DNA from: Microbacterium sp. VKM Ac-2870
GTDB taxonomy: Bacteria; Actinomycetota; Actinomycetes; Actinomycetales; Microbacteriaceae
Assembly: GCF_015350795.1 (NCBI RefSeq)
Contig: NZ_JADKSH010000001.1
Location: 62,461-126,460, forward strand
DNA: 64,000 nucleotides
Direction: 5' to 3'
In this document: in pieces, positions 1 through 6,028 of the stretch
Layout of the letters: each line of letters begins with the position of its first letter
Position numbering within the stretch: the stretch's first letter is position 1
The notes under the pieces: model-generated
The model's input: only the letters and a program-made list of their open reading frames with translations
Database searches by the model: none
Told to the model about the DNA's origin: nothing
Position numbers and translations under genes: made by a program

Positions 1-1178
1 TGCTGACGATCCATGGTTCGAAAGGGCTCGAATGGGACGCGGTGGCGGTCGTGCGGCTCGTGGAGGACGAGCTTCCGACCCGCCCGAAAGATACGCGCGG
101 CTGGTTGGCCTTCGGGGTGCTGCCCTACGGTTTCCGAGGAGACGCTGCCTGGCTTCCGTCGTTCCGCTGGCGTGCGGAAGACTCACCCACTCAGCAGGAC
201 CTCTCCGCCGCCCTGGCCGACTTCGTCGAGGCCGGGCGTGCTCGCCAACTCGAAGAGGAGCGCCGCCTTGCCTATGTCGCCGTCACCCGCGCGCGCTCCC
301 ATTTGCTGCTGACGGGCTCGCTGTGGTCGGGCACGAAATCGGCTCGGCGTCCGAGCCCGTTCCTTCGCGAGATCGCCGACGCGCTCGAGGCTCCGCTCGA
401 GGTTCCCGACGATGCGGGCGAGAATCCCTTCGAAGGACGTCGTCGTCTGTTGCAGTGGCCGCTCGATCCGCTCGGTGCGCGGCGGCGGGTGGTCGAGTCT
501 GCAGCGGAAGCCGTGCGTGCCGCCGCGGCGTCGCCGCCTCCGGCGCCGACGCGCGAACTCGCCCTGCTCCTGGCCGAGCGCGAGGCGCGTGAGCGACCGC
601 CACGGCCCACGGCGCCGGTGCGGATCCCAGCCTCTCGCTTCAAGGACTTTCTCGGCGATGCCCCCGCCCTGGCGCGCGCCATGCCGGAGCGTCCGTATCG
701 CCAGTCCCGACTCGGCACGCGGTTCCACGCCTGGGTCGAGCAGCGCTCGGGGCTCGTCGGGGTCGGCGTCTCACCCGATGACGTGCTCTGGGACGACGAC
801 GAGGGCGATCAGGTCTCTGCCGGCGAACCCGATGCCGAGTTGGCGGCGCTGCAGGAGAAGTTCCTGGCGTCGGAGTGGGCGCAGCTGCAGCCGCTCGAGG
901 TCGAGACCGAGATCGACGTGACGATTGCCGACGCGCTCGGCGACGGGCGCGACCATGTGGTCATCTGCAAACTCGACGCGGTCTACCGTCGAGGCGAGCG
1001 TATCGAGATCGTCGACTGGAAGACCGGGCGCGCCCCGCGGACAGCGGCCGAGCGCGACGAGCGTATGGTTCAGCTTCGGCTGTATCGCACTGCGTACCAC
1101 GCACGCCACGGCGTGCCGCTGGACCAGATCGACGTGGTGCTCTTCTACGTCGACGAGGGTCTCATCCTGCGCGATTGA
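1..1178 (+). CDS. AdnB-like ATP-dependent DNA helicase/nuclease, 3' part only
   Basis: This is the C-terminal part of a UvrD/REP-family helicase fused to a RecB-like PD-(D/E)XK nuclease; the 5' end lies outside the window. Visible pieces in order: helicase motif V (GSKGLEW, first codons), motif VI (EERRLAYVAVTRAR, about 245-300), then a nuclease domain with GTRFHAWVE (about 715-740), CKLDAV and IVDWKTG (about 965-1025) and a QLRLYRTAY helix. Asp and Lys of the nuclease core are present. In Mycobacterium, AdnA and AdnB form a heterodimer that resects double-strand breaks; the following nudC and uvrD2 match the Mycobacterium order, in which AdnB is the last of the pair. The AdnB assignment rests on that order, the family on motifs. 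The stop is 13 bp from the convergent next gene. Confidence 0.85.
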   Translation, partial: LTIHGSKGLEWDAVAVVRLVEDELPTRPKDTRGWLAFGVLPYGFRGDAAWLPSFRWRAEDSPTQQDLSAALADFVEAGRARQLEEERRLAYVAVTRARSHLLLTGSLWSGTKSARRPSPFLREIADALEAPLEVPDDAGENPFEGRRRLLQWPLDPLGARRRVVESAAEAVRAAAASPPPAPTRELALLLAEREARERPPRPTAPVRIPASRFKDFLGDAPALARAMPERPYRQSRLGTRFHAWVEQRSGLVGVGVSPDDVLWDDDEGDQVSAGEPDAELAALQEKFLASEWAQLQPLEVETEIDVTIADALGDGRDHVVICKLDAVYRRGERIEIVDWKTGRAPRTAAERDERMVQLRLYRTAYHARHGVPLDQIDVVLFYVDEGLILRD

Positions 1179-1191
1179 TCGACGACGCCGA

Positions 1192-2520
1192 TCAGGCGGT
1201 GCCGGTCCAGCGCCGCAGAGCGTTTCGAGCGGCGGTGTCCCGATCGATGTCGTCGGCGCTCGAGGATGCCGAGGCCTCACGATCGTCCGCGGGCGCATTG
1301 CTTTCCTCGGCGGGTGACGGGGCGACGGGCACGTCGGAGGTGTGCACTGGCACGCGACCGGAGACCTGCGGCGCCGGGCCCGACGGCGACCAATCCGACA
1401 GCTCGATCGGGACCGTCTCGAGGTGTCCGGTCTGCCCATACGCGGTGTCGTTCTCGTCCGCGAGGAAAGCAGCCAGAGTCTCGGGATCGAAGCTGTCGGT
1501 CTGCATCGAGGTGTCGGCGACCTCTCCCGCACCGGCCGGTACGCGCTGCGTCGCGGCGAGTGCCTGGTCGAGGGTGACGTCGTCGCGCGCGCGCACCGGC
1601 TCGTCCCGCACGCTGGCATCCAGCGATTCGAGCAACGCGACCGCGTCGCCGACGACGGTCTGCTCGCCGGCCTCATGACCGTGTACGAGCCACTTGGCGA
1701 ACTCGAGTTCGGCGTGCAGGCGCGCGCGCTCGGCGAGCAGGGCGTCGGGGGCGCGGTGCGAGCGGCGGGCGTACTCGTCGAGCACATCGGCCTGGGCAGC
1801 CGGCGCCGACGCCGTCCACCGCACGTCGATCGCGGGATCGCCGACCCCGAGGCTTCCCCAGGACAGCAGACCGGTCACGACGGGAGCACCCTCCTCGTCG
1901 TCCTCGAACACGAAGGATGCCGGGTCGACCCCGCCGAGAACGACCGTCGTCTCGAAGCGCCAGAGCGGATCGGAGCCGAGCGAGGTGCTCCACCGACGGA
2001 GAAGGCCGAAGGGAAGCAATCCCGTGGCTTCCGCCCGGTCGAGGAGGCGTTCAGCCTCGTCACGCACCTGCGCAGCGGTGAGCATCGGCAGTCCGGCATC
2101 GCGGATGACGGTGACCGGCAGGTCGTGAACCGCGGCGATCGCTGCGGCGAGCGCGGTTGCTACTCCTCGCCCCGCCGGGACGTGCGCCGCGTCGACGCGG
2201 TAGCCGGGCAGCAGCGTCTGCACGAGGGTGGCGCGCCCATCGACGGTCGTCTGTCCGAGCACGTCCGGGGCGCCGAAGGGAAGCACACCGCGAACGCCGG
2301 CGGTGAGCGAGGTGAGCGCGCGTGCTTCGGCGAGAAGGTCGGCCTCGGCCTGGTCGTTCACGGGCACGCGCACAACCACGCGGCGAGCGTCGTCGAGAGT
2401 CGCGATCGCGCTGTCGTAGCGACCGGAGACACCCTCGGTCAGCGGGGCCACACCGACCACCGCGACGCGGGGCAGGGCCGACGTGACCGACGCGGCTAGA
2501 GTGAGTGGTGAGCGTGCCAT
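1192..2520 (-). CDS. APH/phosphotransferase-fold protein, probable pseudokinase
   Basis: A 442-residue protein with the outline of the aminoglycoside/macrolide phosphotransferase fold: glycine-poor N-lobe, then at 193-204 a stretch aligning with the usual HGDxHxxN catalytic loop, followed by LLSWGSLGVGDPAID (218-232) aligning with the IDWExxxxGDPxxD segment. Catalytic Asp (here Gly), Asn (here Ser) and the metal-binding Asp of IDWE (here Ser) are all missing, and the beta-3 Lys appears to be Arg51. I therefore infer it does not phosphorylate. The last 130 residues are acidic and low complexity. I chose ATG 2520 because a TACCCT box lies 6 nt upstream (leaderless start) and the protein then begins MARSPLTLAAS; an upstream in-frame start at 2607 would run into the nudC promoter region. 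Diverges from nudC. Confidence 0.75.
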   Translation of the reverse strand: MARSPLTLAASVTSALPRVAVVGVAPLTEGVSGRYDSAIATLDDARRVVVRVPVNDQAEADLLAEARALTSLTAGVRGVLPFGAPDVLGQTTVDGRATLVQTLLPGYRVDAAHVPAGRGVATALAAAIAAVHDLPVTVIRDAGLPMLTAAQVRDEAERLLDRAEATGLLPFGLLRRWSTSLGSDPLWRFETTVVLGGVDPASFVFEDDEEGAPVVTGLLSWGSLGVGDPAIDVRWTASAPAAQADVLDEYARRSHRAPDALLAERARLHAELEFAKWLVHGHEAGEQTVVGDAVALLESLDASVRDEPVRARDDVTLDQALAATQRVPAGAGEVADTSMQTDSFDPETLAAFLADENDTAYGQTGHLETVPIELSDWSPSGPAPQVSGRVPVHTSDVPVAPSPAEESNAPADDREASASSSADDIDRDTAARNALRRWTGTA

Positions 2521-2585: not shown

Positions 2586-3530
2586 ATGTCGTCATCGGCT
2601 GAGTCACCCATTGCGGTTCGTCCGCCCGCGCTTGCGCGCGGCGGCATCGATCGTGCTGCCGAGGAGCGCACCGACACCGGTCTCATCGAGCGGTTGCGTG
2701 CCGATGCCGGTGCACGGGTGGTCGCCGTGCACGGCGACCGCGTGCCGGTGGACGCCTCCGGGGCGCTGCGCACCGTCGCCGTCGGCGAAGTGCGCGAAGA
2801 CAGCGCGTGGGCTTTCCTGGGGCGCGACGCGACCGGTGCCGCAATGCTGCTCGCGGCGACCGCATCCAACGCGGCATCCCCCGTTCGCGAACCCGCCGCG
2901 TTCGAGAGTGACGCCGGATGGGCGTCTCTGCGGGCGGTGGGGGGAACGCTGTCGGCGACCGACGCGGGTGTGGTCGTCGAAGCGGTCGCGCTCGGGCGCT
3001 GGCTTGTCGACGCCCCGTTCTGCTCGCACTGTGGCGCCCGTACGGTGGAGCGGTCGGCCGGATGGGCACGTCACTGCCCCGTGTGCGGGCGGGAGCACTT
3101 CCCGCGCACCGACCCGGCCGTCATCGTCGGGGTGATCTCGCCCGATGGGTCGCGGCTGCTGCTCGGCAAGAACGCCGTCTGGGCGGAGCGAAACGTCTAC
3201 TCGACCTTCGCCGGATTCGTCGAGGCGGGGGAGTCGCTGGAGTCCGCGATCATCCGCGAGGTGCACGAGGAAGCGGGAGTCGAGGTCGGGTCTCTCGACT
3301 ACCGCGGTTCGCAGTCGTGGCCTTACCCGCGCTCGCTCATGCTGGGCTTCCACGCCGTCGCTGCCGATCCCGACGTCGCCCGCGCTGACGGCGAGGAGAT
3401 CGTCGACGTGCGATGGTTCACCCGCGACGAGGTTCTTGCGGCGCTCCGCGGGGAGGGCGATGTCGTGTTGCCGGGCACGTCATCCATCGCGCACCGCCTC
3501 ATCGCCGACTGGGCCGGGGCGCCGGAGTGA
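2586..3530 (+). CDS. nudC: NAD(+)/NADH diphosphatase NudC
   Basis: Hydrolyses NAD(H) to NMN(H) and AMP and, in characterised homologues, removes NAD caps from RNA 5' ends. 314 residues. A zinc ribbon is formed by Cys146, Cys149, Cys164 and Cys167. The Nudix box starts at G210 and contains REVHEEAGV, followed by SQSWPYPRS (242-250), the motif that marks the NADH-pyrophosphatase subfamily. ATG 2586 is preceded by GAGGAAGG, a good Shine-Dalgarno; the longer in-frame ORF would overlap the divergent promoter. Its stop overlaps the GTG of the downstream uvrD2-like gene (GTGA), so the two are probably translationally coupled, as in the mycobacterial nudC-uvrD2 order. Confidence 0.93.
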   Translation: MSSSAESPIAVRPPALARGGIDRAAEERTDTGLIERLRADAGARVVAVHGDRVPVDASGALRTVAVGEVREDSAWAFLGRDATGAAMLLAATASNAASPVREPAAFESDAGWASLRAVGGTLSATDAGVVVEAVALGRWLVDAPFCSHCGARTVERSAGWARHCPVCGREHFPRTDPAVIVGVISPDGSRLLLGKNAVWAERNVYSTFAGFVEAGESLESAIIREVHEEAGVEVGSLDYRGSQSWPYPRSLMLGFHAVAADPDVARADGEEIVDVRWFTRDEVLAALRGEGDVVLPGTSSIAHRLIADWAGAPE

Positions 3531-5242
3531 GCTCATCGCCTCTGGCCGACCTCGACGAACAGCAGCGGGAGGCGGCCTCGTCGCTGCGCGGTCCGCTGTG
3601 CGTGCTGGCTGGGGCAGGCACGGGCAAGACGCGGGTGATCACGCACCGCATCGCGCACGGTGTCGATACCGGTGCGTACTCGCCGTCGCGGGTGATGGCG
3701 GTGACGTTCACCGCCAAGGCCGCTGGCGAAATGCGCGGGCGCCTGCGTGCTCTCGGCGTGCAGGGCGTCGCCGCACGTACTTTCCACGCCACGGCGCTCG
3801 CGCAGCTCAACTTCTTCTGGCCGCAGCTGGCGCGCGACACCGCCCCCTCGATCATCGACAACAAGGTCCGGGTCCTCGGCCAGGCAGCAGACAGCCTCAG
3901 TTTGCGGCTGGACGGGACGACGCTGCGTGACGTCGCCAGTCGCATCGAGTGGCGCAAGGTCGCGATGCGCACGATAGATCAGGATGCCGCCGCCCACCCC
4001 GACGGACTGGGGCCGAAGCTCAGTGCGGACAGGCTGGCCGAGCTGCAGCGCCGCTACGAGAAGCTGAAGGACGAGCGCCGCCAACTCGACTTCGAGGACG
4101 TCCTGCTCGCATGCGCCGGCATGCTGGAGTCGGAGCCGCGGGTCGCGGCGGCGGTGCACGAGCAGTACCGCCACCTCACGGTCGACGAGTTCCAAGACGT
4201 GTCGCCTGTGCAGTACCGGCTGTTGGAGCTCTGGCTCGGCGATCGCCGAGATGTCTGCGTCGTCGGAGATGCGAGCCAGACCATCTATTCGTTTGCCGGC
4301 GCCGATCCTCGCTACCTCCTCGAATTCGTCGATCGTTACGAGGACGCGCGGCTGGTCCGGCTGGAGCGGAACTACCGGTCCGACCCGTCGGTGCTCGCGG
4401 TCGCGAATGCCCTCATGCGCGGGCGTCCGGGTGCGCTCGCCCTCCGCTCCGATCGCACGGCGGGACCGACGCCGACACTCACCGGCTACCCCGACGACGC
4501 CGCCGAGGCGGACGGGGTGGCGTCCGCGATCGCGGGTCAGATCGCCGCCGGCGTCGAGCCCCACGACATCGCCGTGCTCTACCGCGCGAACGCGCAGTCC
4601 GCGTCGCTGTTGGCTGCGCTGGCATCGCGCGGCATCCCCGCCACCGTCCTCGGCGGCAAGCGCTTCTTCGACCTGCCCGAAGTGCGCCAGGCCGTGCTGG
4701 CCCTGCGCGGCGCGTCGGTGGCGCCCCTGGAGACGACGTTTCTGGCCGCAGTGCGCGATGTGCTCCGTTCGCTCGGCCTCACCGAAGATCCGCCCCCGGC
4801 CGGAGGCGCGCTGCGTGACGCCTGGGAGGCGCGGGCAGCGGTGCTGCGCCTGGCGGAGCAGGCTGAGGAAGGAACGACGCTGCGTGCATTCACCGATGAG
4901 CTCATGGCGCGCGGTCGTGACCAGCACGAGCCGACGATGCGCACGGTGACGCTGGCCACGCTGCATGCGGCCAAGGGGCTCGAGTGGAATCACGTGCACC
5001 TGGTGGGCCTGTCGGAGGGGTTGCTGCCCATCTCCTACGCCACGGGGTTCGAGGAGATCGATGAGGAGCGCCGCCTGGCCTACGTCGGCATCACGCGCGC
5101 CGCGCACTCGCTCTCGTTGAGCTGGTCTGAGCGCTCCGGAACGCGTCAGCGACAGCCGTCACGGTTCCTCCAGGAGATCGGCACAGGCACGCTGCGTGCG
5201 GGCGATGCGCGTGCCACGTCCGCCGGACGTGCGCGGCGCTGA
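3527..5242 (+). CDS. uvrD2: UvrD2-like superfamily 1 DNA helicase
   Basis: A 3'-5' SF1A helicase of 571 residues. Motif I GAGTGKT near 29-35, motif II DEFQD at 220-224, motif III GDASQTIYSF, motif IV ERNYRS, motif V TLHAAKGLEW, motif VI EERRLAYVGITRA at 513-525. GTG 3527 overlaps the nudC stop by 4 nt. It ends about 45 residues after motif VI, so the HRDC domain and Cys-rich tail that bring mycobacterial UvrD2 to about 700 residues are absent. Its last 150 bp are also read on the opposite strand by the next gene. The UvrD2 name relies on its place after nudC; the helicase family is certain. Confidence 0.88.
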   Translation: MSSSPLADLDEQQREAASSLRGPLCVLAGAGTGKTRVITHRIAHGVDTGAYSPSRVMAVTFTAKAAGEMRGRLRALGVQGVAARTFHATALAQLNFFWPQLARDTAPSIIDNKVRVLGQAADSLSLRLDGTTLRDVASRIEWRKVAMRTIDQDAAAHPDGLGPKLSADRLAELQRRYEKLKDERRQLDFEDVLLACAGMLESEPRVAAAVHEQYRHLTVDEFQDVSPVQYRLLELWLGDRRDVCVVGDASQTIYSFAGADPRYLLEFVDRYEDARLVRLERNYRSDPSVLAVANALMRGRPGALALRSDRTAGPTPTLTGYPDDAAEADGVASAIAGQIAAGVEPHDIAVLYRANAQSASLLAALASRGIPATVLGGKRFFDLPEVRQAVLALRGASVAPLETTFLAAVRDVLRSLGLTEDPPPAGGALRDAWEARAAVLRLAEQAEEGTTLRAFTDELMARGRDQHEPTMRTVTLATLHAAKGLEWNHVHLVGLSEGLLPISYATGFEEIDEERRLAYVGITRAAHSLSLSWSERSGTRQRQPSRFLQEIGTGTLRAGDARATSAGRARR

Positions 5243-5987
5243 GTCCCACCGACAGGCTCGAGCGTGCCTCGGGATGTTCGGCACCGTCGCCCGGATCGAG
5301 CATCCCCTCGGCGTGCACGCGCAGAAGTCGTGCGGTCAGAAGCGCCGCCTCCACGAGCAGCGCCGGGTCGGTGCGGACGGGGTCACGGCCGAGTAACTGA
5401 GCGGCCACGAGCGGCCACTCGGGATCGTCCGCCGTGCGCTGCGCATGCAGACAGGCGGCGCAGGCGGTGACACCGGGGATGATGACCGGCCCGACCTGCA
5501 CGCGATCGCCGGCGAGCTCCACGGGAAGATGCGTGACATCCGCTGCCATGAGCCGCGCCGCGCGTCGTGGATCGAGCATGCGATGCGCGACGACGATCAG
5601 GGCGATGCCGCGTTGCGGCGCGTCGGACGCCCATCGCGTCAGCCCGACGCGGGTAAGCCCCGCCGCGTCCCACCCCGCCGTCAGCGCGTCGAGTTCGGCG
5701 TGGGTGAGCCCGTCGGGGATTTCCACCTGCACAGGGATCGGTGCTGGCGTCTCCGGCGCCAGCGCGCCCTCGATTCGCGCCGCGAACTGCGTGGCCTCCG
5801 CATCGGTGGCACCGAAGCTGCGCGCCAGGGGGATCAACATCGCGTCGGGGATGCCGTCGCCGAGCGCATCGATCAGACGCTCTTGCCACGGATGGATGCC
5901 GTCGACTCGCACCGGCGCGTCGGTGCCCAGTTGGAGATTCGACGGCGTCCGCCACAGCGGAGGGTGCGAAGGCGCGAGTCGGAGCAT
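5091..5987 (-). CDS. TOMM cyclodehydratase-like (leader-binding/E1-like) protein
   Basis: 298 residues related to the Rv3196 group and to the bacteriocin-biosynthesis cyclodehydratase domain seen in TOMM proteins. The signature is GVTACAACLHAQRTADDPEWP mid-protein and a terminal PHAACLCRS; the two cysteine pairs are probably zinc ligands, as in E1-like adenylating folds. No YcaO protein, flavin dehydrogenase or precursor peptide lies in the window, so a TOMM pathway here is not shown. The coding sequence runs 152 bp antisense into the uvrD2 3' end, and the CLC motif (5181-5189) lies inside that overlap, which argues the overlap is real. ATG 5987 chosen; GTG 6005 is an in-frame alternative and neither has a clear ribosome site. 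Confidence 0.65.
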   Translation of the reverse strand: MLRLAPSHPPLWRTPSNLQLGTDAPVRVDGIHPWQERLIDALGDGIPDAMLIPLARSFGATDAEATQFAARIEGALAPETPAPIPVQVEIPDGLTHAELDALTAGWDAAGLTRVGLTRWASDAPQRGIALIVVAHRMLDPRRAARLMAADVTHLPVELAGDRVQVGPVIIPGVTACAACLHAQRTADDPEWPLVAAQLLGRDPVRTDPALLVEAALLTARLLRVHAEGMLDPGDGAEHPEARSSLSVGLSAAHVRRTWHAHRPHAACLCRSPGGTVTAVADAFRSAQTSSTRASARRA

Positions 5988-6028
5988 GCCCCGATTGTGG
6001 GGCACCCGCTTAGCCGACGACGCGACTG

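Follow-up and report, generated by a model that had tools for sequence, protein, structure and literature searches.

The window analysed here, a stretch of 64,000 nucleotides from Microbacterium sp. VKM Ac-2870, carries, antisense between an adnB-type gene and nudC, a gene whose product has an antibiotic-kinase fold and a degenerate active site, and the question raised by this locus is what such a protein is kept for. The gene spans positions 1192–2520 on the minus strand and encodes 442 amino acids plus a stop codon, with a kinase domain of the Mph/APH fold at residues 1–306. The protein belongs to the Pfam family APH (PF01636), with 43.5 bits against a cut-off of 23.2, and the curated models closest to it are those of the Mph macrolide kinases, all of which stay far under their cut-offs (56.7 bits versus 550 for the NCBIfam Mph(A) model, and less for the other Mph models listed). 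Among solved structures, Mph(A) is likewise the best match by sequence (5igh, E 2.7e-15), and identity to the Mph(A) and MphH enzymes is 24–25%. The AlphaFold model has a mean pLDDT of 84.1 over 442 residues, with core blocks mostly above 95, and in structure comparison the predicted fold reached Z 26.7 against Mph(A) (5igi; 284 residues), the same score as against APH(2'')-IIIa, and Z 26.3 against MphH; in two structure listings, all of the 50 matches listed in each were antibiotic-kinase structures. The phosphotransferase scaffold that a first-pass annotation had attributed to this protein is therefore supported by both the Pfam match and the predicted fold.

The same annotation had proposed that the catalytic Asp, the metal Asn and the second metal Asp are missing while GDPxxD is kept, and had placed the defect at 1861–1944. 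These positions encode, on the minus strand, residues 193–220, which extend from the catalytic loop through the second metal position. When aligned to Mph(A), the HGD.....H and IDW of the enzyme correspond to LGG.....S and LSW in the window protein, where L195, G196 and G197 replace HGD, S202 replaces His/Asn and S220 replaces Asp. The GDPxxD motif is intact as GDPAID at residues 227–232 (1825–1842, minus strand), with D228 and D232 being Asp in every row tabulated. The alignment thus bears out the site, the three losses and the retained motif, but the name given to the first metal ligand has to be amended: the position holds Ser either way, and the closest active relatives have His there instead of Asn. 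This is the case for MphH, in which the catalytic and metal residues are described as Glu196, His201 and Asp214 (PMC5760710). According to the same source, MphH functions with Glu196 as catalytic residue in place of Asp and, by analogy, Glu at the catalytic position may be tolerated. R51, a basic residue of the N-lobe (2368–2370, minus strand), is Arg in 66 of the 74 one-per-genus rows of the window's family; since Mph(A) also has an Arg at this position, R51 does not count as a loss.

Active Mph/APH kinases are recognised by an Asp or Glu in HGD together with two metal ligands, and the window protein presents G197, S202 and S220 at these positions. As far as the predicted model goes, it fits the description of a pseudokinase, namely a kinase fold from which the phosphotransfer residues have been lost. 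An intact catalytic Asp elsewhere would be at odds with this description, and it was looked for by homologue alignment and in the predicted model. The homologues were the best 80 of 535 loci from a scan of named genomes, nearly all of them Microbacterium, which together with the window make up the 81 Microbacterium-like rows; 59 of these 80 loci were used in a 60-row alignment. No shifted Asp was conserved at 188–206 in the Microbacterium-like rows, and D199 of the window protein was discarded as a candidate, Asp being present there in only 19 of the 81. Further along, Asp occurs at 207 in 50 of the 81 rows and D208 reaches a conservation of at least 90% in the 60-row alignment; both were rejected as catalytic residues, as they are predicted to lie at the end of or after the strand 203–207, past the catalytic loop. 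Judging from these residues, the window protein very probably performs no phosphotransfer.

The gene is nearly universal in one bacterial order. When the window protein served as query, a match was obtained in 296 of 299 genomes of the window's family (f1, presumably the Microbacteriaceae), representing 84 of 85 genera and as a rule with one match per genome, and a 13-row profile found a match in 293 of the 297 order genomes sampled, two of these matches (G329 and G419) resembling another APH-type gene. Of 296 genomes sampled from the class, 30 gave a match at 1e-10, of which 27 were members of the order and three were Mph-like kinases (L162–L164). In these large genome searches the 5–7 best-ranked candidates were scored per genome, and the same setting found nearly all order genomes. 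In three genomes with no match (G022, G256 and G438) the AdnB match stops at or near a contig edge, and a match was likewise absent from G144, G308, G347 and G473. The gene is kept even in sub-megabase genomes, being present in those of 0.8–0.9 Mb. Additionally, a contig titled as a Microthrixaceae metagenome-assembled genome (L302) contains an orthologue with 54% identity to the window protein, like the surrounding Microbacterium rows, and this record may be mislabelled or contaminated.

Within the 81 Microbacterium-like rows, position 197 is occupied by Gly in 75, Ser in 5 and His in 1, and by Asp or Glu in none. The replacements are themselves conserved (L195 and G197 in 75 rows each, R153 in all 81, Asp or Glu at 155 in 77), which gives the replaced site the appearance of a new constraint; Asp at 220 is found in 26 of the 81. 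This conservation would be expected if the protein were still an enzyme, either an atypical kinase or a fold reused for other chemistry, as happens in other kinase-like folds, for example in SelO and in the polyglutamylation catalysed by SidJ. The same alternative gains from the Arg at 51 and from an acidic residue at 65 in 67 of the 74 f1 genera, as well as from the Glu that MphH uses in place of Asp (PMC5760710). However, the catalytic base and the first metal ligand are both missing in nearly all f1 rows, no Asp is conserved at 188–206 in the Microbacterium-like rows, and the residue in place of Asp197 varies among genera (Ser, Ala, Gly, Thr, Asn and others), which makes a surviving enzymatic activity unlikely. 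Asp197 is missing in 72 of the 74 one-per-genus rows of f1; the two exceptions that have it (L038 and L098) are both devoid of the metal ligands, and two further rows (L072 and L090) have Glu.

Outside the window's family, the active site ranges from complete to dead. HGD, His and Asp are complete in every sampled row of six of the 19 families, 16 rows in total (one in f2, four in f5, one in f13, five in f14, one in f17 and four in f20), and UvrD2 was matched in the same stretch at one locus from each of these six families (L165, L168, L173, L174, L177 and L178). Orthologues with all residues had been named in the first-pass annotation as a finding that would refute a dead kinase; they do exist in these six families, and the inactivity of the window protein is not overturned by them. 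Their existence instead indicates that catalytic loss is derived. In f3, f6 and f15, HGD is kept and the second metal Asp is absent from all sampled rows. On the tree set, Asp197 is present in 2/74 rows of f1, 1/11 of f4, 2/8 of f7, 5/6 of f9, 2/3 of f10, 3/9 of f12, 3/12 of f18 and in all rows of the 12 remaining families; it has thus been lost in rows of seven of 19 families, the window's family and six others. A 172-row tree built with the catalytic columns left out requires at least 11 changes of Asp197 and at least 23 of Asp220, counts that carry no direction and come from a quick tree in which 53 of the 169 inner branches are open. Since the complete set returns in different families and corresponds to that of known enzymes, reading the changes as losses is the sensible choice. 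A loss-only count of 26 events was set aside in favour of the 11 changes, being inflated by the two Asp-bearing rows within f1. The rows derive from 254 loci, reduced to 208 after removal of duplicates, with f1 brought from 109 to 74 by taking one per genus; L145 was left out as too short, and L151–L153 (the sole matches of G329 and G419 and the second match of G322) were left out as resembling other APH-type genes.

Two families deserve separate mention. In f18, represented by 12 loci, Asp has been lost in 9 rows and, despite these losses, R153 and R155 are kept in all 12 and Y147 in 11, which makes this family a good place for testing ligand binding without catalysis. In f7, with 8 loci, the second metal Asp is kept in 7 rows, the catalytic Asp is lost in 6 and the N-lobe Arg in all 8, a decay order that is the reverse of that seen in f6. 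One orthologous group therefore spans the range from a complete to a dead active site, and it lets one ask what the scaffold does without the chemistry.

The residues that accompany the intact motif were evaluated by comparing 42 HGD-bearing rows, taken as one per genus from 13 families and chosen for Asp197, with the 74 rows of f1. Of the 55 columns at least 90% conserved in the HGD rows, 38 are occupied by the same residue in 80% or more of f1 rows, unlike the other 17. The changed columns include H195, R153 and R155, each 100% conserved in the 42 HGD rows, Y147, conserved in 95%, and D197, which is 100% in these rows by selection. R153 and R155 are perhaps substrate-binding, as their conservation suggests; R153 is nevertheless kept in the window and its Microbacterium-like relatives, in which an acidic residue occupies 155, as given above. 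H132, W177, D228 and D232 are unchanged between the HGD rows and f1, and R51 is lost in f4 and f7. The raw counts gave the impression of co-loss of R155 with Asp (57 rows with both, 7 with Asp only, 17 with R155 only and 88 with neither), but just 7 phylogenetically independent pairs were available, and among the columns listed no association with Asp loss was verified in these pairs either for R155 or for the tail (sign tests, p 1 and 0.5, respectively). In f18, moreover, R153, R155 and Y147 are kept although 9 of its 12 rows are without Asp.

The repeated changes could also mean that the whole orthologous group has been mainly non-catalytic from early on, with HGD elsewhere as a remnant or serving an accessory reaction. 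The loss of Asp in rows of seven families and the even more numerous changes of the second metal Asp, missing from the sampled f3, f6 and f15 rows despite their HGD, are consistent with such an origin. On the other hand, the strict conservation of H195, R153 and R155, and the near-strict conservation of Y147, in the HGD rows points to real catalysis there, and a mainly non-catalytic function of the whole group from early on is an improbable reading.

A third alternative, a macrolide or aminoglycoside resistance kinase, draws on the fact that the nearest solved structures are Mph and APH enzymes. In addition, a published resistome of M. yannicii PS01 includes a 435-aa predicted aminoglycoside phosphotransferase with 61% identity to M. 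testaceum (PMC3655929), and the orthologue identified here in the same strain (L275) has 435 aa and is 60–61% identical to M. testaceum orthologues. One orthologue has thus probably already been counted as a resistance gene, and dead members may inflate resistance-gene counts. A resistance function is very improbable for the window protein, however, as the catalytic residues are missing, the best NCBIfam score falls far short of its cut-off and the gene is near-universal and fixed in location.

The gene is under purifying selection. In 17 independent close pairs, picked by a UvrD2 synonymous distance of 0.02–0.6, the pooled dN/dS of the pseudokinase core was 0.165 (0.03–0.59 for single pairs), compared with 0.227 for NudC, 0.200 for the AdnB part and 0.109 for UvrD2. 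These values replaced an earlier calculation over 1566 pairs (medians of 0.445 for the pseudokinase, 0.403 for NudC, 0.402 for the AdnB part and 0.257 for UvrD2), in which the synonymous distances were high and saturated. A decaying pseudogene, which in-frame stops in at least four family matches (G012, G019, G203 and G239, all extending past residue 308 into the tail) and in G320 of the order might suggest, is hardly credible in view of this dN/dS, of the great majority of listed matches being without stop and of the presence of the gene in reduced genomes. Since the gene is kept in place in nearly all sampled relatives though its catalytic residues have been lost, it seems to have a job other than phosphorylation, and we consider it likely that it is kept for a non-catalytic function.

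The surroundings of the gene were also held to be informative in the first-pass annotation, which described a dead kinase in a conserved DNA-repair and NAD neighbourhood. In the window, the 3' part of the adnB-type gene (1–1178, plus strand) belongs to a 1095-aa frame starting upstream of the window and is convergent with the pseudokinase gene; its name was inferred from the UvrD_C and PDDEXK_1 domains and from a tandem 1200-aa frame before it, which overlaps the 1095-aa frame. On the other side, nudC (2586–3530, plus strand; 213 bits with the NAD(+) diphosphatase model, cut-off 158) is divergent from the pseudokinase gene and is followed by a UvrD-type helicase gene (3527–5242, plus strand), named UvrD2 from its position and size. 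A 304-aa protein is encoded at 5091–6005 on the minus strand, with a sub-threshold match to TIGR03882 (TOMM leader-peptide-binding; 35.0 bits versus 36.9) and none to Pfam models at E up to 1; its relatives lie near UvrD2 in most f1 loci, and three loci from other families of the class give weak matches. Among 60 loci, 40 from f1 and 20 from elsewhere in the order, a match was found to UvrD2 in 60, to NudC in 57 and to AdnB in 53, so that the dead kinase, devoid of Asp197 in all 81 Microbacterium-like rows, does sit in conserved synteny. Of 20 further loci from divergent lineages, 9 had no NudC and the four belonging to f4 had no AdnB; the f4 genomes tested do contain frames with a nuclease domain and of AdnAB size, but at another place. 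Within these loci, each about 14 kb long, a NudC match was missing in 3/60 and 9/20, and NudC was rejected as an obligate neighbour. Genes were ordered by open-frame start, and seeming swaps of the pseudokinase and NudC may be artefacts.

The block itself appears to be older than the gene within it. Outgroup regions were obtained from 10 of 12 genomes, all from other families of the class. In 7 of these ten loci, NudC and UvrD2 come after AdnB with the same orientation, and in 2 of the 7 the AdnB and NudC matches are separated by about 100 bases. No orthologue was found with the orthologue profile in the ten loci, the sole match being an ordinary APH in L359. This APH, from another family of the class, has HGD, VDW and GDP and is placed between AdnB and UvrD2 in antisense orientation, where members of the order have the pseudokinase. 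The most likely history, judged by gene order, is that the adnB-nudC-uvrD2 block existed first and the pseudokinase gene was later inserted into it in antisense. The synteny part of the neighbourhood argument stands, but its weight as a clue to function is weakened, because this block exists without the gene in other families, the gene occurs without NudC and the AdnAB-type nuclease genes of the f4 genomes tested sit elsewhere.

Beyond the kinase domain, residues 308–442 (1195–1599, minus strand) form an acidic tail with low to middling pLDDT that is probably largely disordered. A C-terminal helix is predicted at residues 422–439 (1204–1257, minus strand; pLDDT about 70–74) and carries an A(L/F/I)xRW motif, which 73 of the 81 Microbacterium-like rows have within their last 20 residues (47 with a stricter pattern). 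Tail length differs among families: it is at most 12 aa in f2, f5, f8, f10, f15, f16 and f17, many other members have an acidic tail, and tails of at least 40 aa occur in 89 of 139 genera. Since the complete-set families f13, f14 and f20 can have tails, the tail is no mark of death, and a link between tail gain and catalytic loss is unsupported by the independent pairs. The tail of the window protein contains a single acidic-Thr-x-x-hydrophobic motif, ETVPI, at residues 368–372 (1405–1419, minus strand). This motif is present in 66 of the 89 tails against 41.7 ± 4.3 in shuffled ones, a test that overstates certainty because related sequences are not independent. The enrichment was verified in f1 alone (35/49 versus 24.0 ± 3.1) and in 11 other families (31/40 versus 17.6 ± 2.7), none of 500 shuffles reaching as high in either set. 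In the same tails, Ser, Ala and reversed versions of the motif showed no enrichment, and that of the Thr motif vanished with the hydrophobic residue at +2 or +4, save for a slight +2 excess outside f1 (22/40 versus 17.5 ± 2.8). FHA domains favour phospho-Thr with certain +3 residues, and 7 FHA matches are found in the window's genome. A reading of the tail by FHA proteins can be entertained on these grounds, though it is rather doubtful.

The explanation that we prefer, and regard as reasonably probable, is that of a lineage-specific pseudokinase acting as a non-catalytic binder or scaffold; the sensor or scaffold role suggested in the first-pass annotation is plausible. From distribution and synteny, an Mph/APH-type small-molecule kinase gene would have become established in an ancestor of the order, in antisense orientation between adnB and nudC, and been inherited thereafter. 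The ancestor of the window's family would then have lost, once for the whole family, the catalytic loop and part of the conserved, perhaps substrate-binding, set; what stayed, under the purifying selection measured above, is the fold together with the Arg/acidic pair of the N-lobe and the GDPxxD core. The states on the tree place losses of the same Asp in parts of other families as well. The kinase domain could hold a ligand or a protein; the ligand is perhaps a nucleotide, whose continued binding is conceivable, if somewhat less likely than its loss. The tail may recruit a partner and, more tentatively, its Thr motifs might be phosphorylated by Ser/Thr kinases and read by FHA-domain proteins. 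The boldest extension, an order-wide signalling hub in which a recurrent pseudokinase with a phospho-Thr tail read by FHA proteins would join Ser/Thr-kinase signalling to the ligand of the active site, possibly controlling AdnAB/UvrD2-linked DNA repair, is a long shot.

In the literature searched, consisting mostly of papers available without subscription, no report or function was found for this orthologous group, and, as regards essentiality, the main text of a Bifidobacterium breve transposon paper (PMC5514069) contains neither "phosphotransferase" nor "helicase". The group appears to be new as a family, and its kind, superfamily kinases turned pseudokinase, is already known. Mph(A) and MphH are the best relatives by sequence and fold, and Mph(A) shares the Arg at the R51 position; the pseudokinase differs from them in lacking the catalytic base and both metal ligands and in its low identity and scores below the Mph cut-offs. 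For the proposed tail mechanism, an analogous model is offered by the pseudokinase domain of MviN (ActPs3), whose tail is reported to be phosphorylated by PknB and to recruit FhaA through its FHA domain (PMC12599244). MviN is likewise an actinobacterial pseudokinase with a C-terminal tail, but its domain is of the Ser/Thr-kinase family and part of a transmembrane protein, whereas the window protein has the Mph/APH fold and its phosphorylation is only proposed.

The closest published pattern is that of the bacterial spore kinases (BSK family; YtaA, CotS, YutH and YsxE), which have the choline/aminoglycoside-kinase (CAK) fold and in which, as described in their source, the catalytic Asp seems to have disappeared from several classes independently of one another, structural His and Asp residues were kept, and a major non-catalytic function was inferred by the authors (PMC2860764). 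The pseudokinase resembles it in the loss of Asp and in the persistence of H132, D228 and D232, which are presumably the equivalent residues. However, BSKs occur in endospore formers and comprise several paralogous classes, whereas the pseudokinase is as a rule a single gene per genome, found in one actinobacterial order, located in the adnB-nudC-uvrD2 block and often provided with a long acidic tail. To our knowledge, Microbacterium makes no endospores, and none of the 10 NCBIfam families listed is a spore-coat model.
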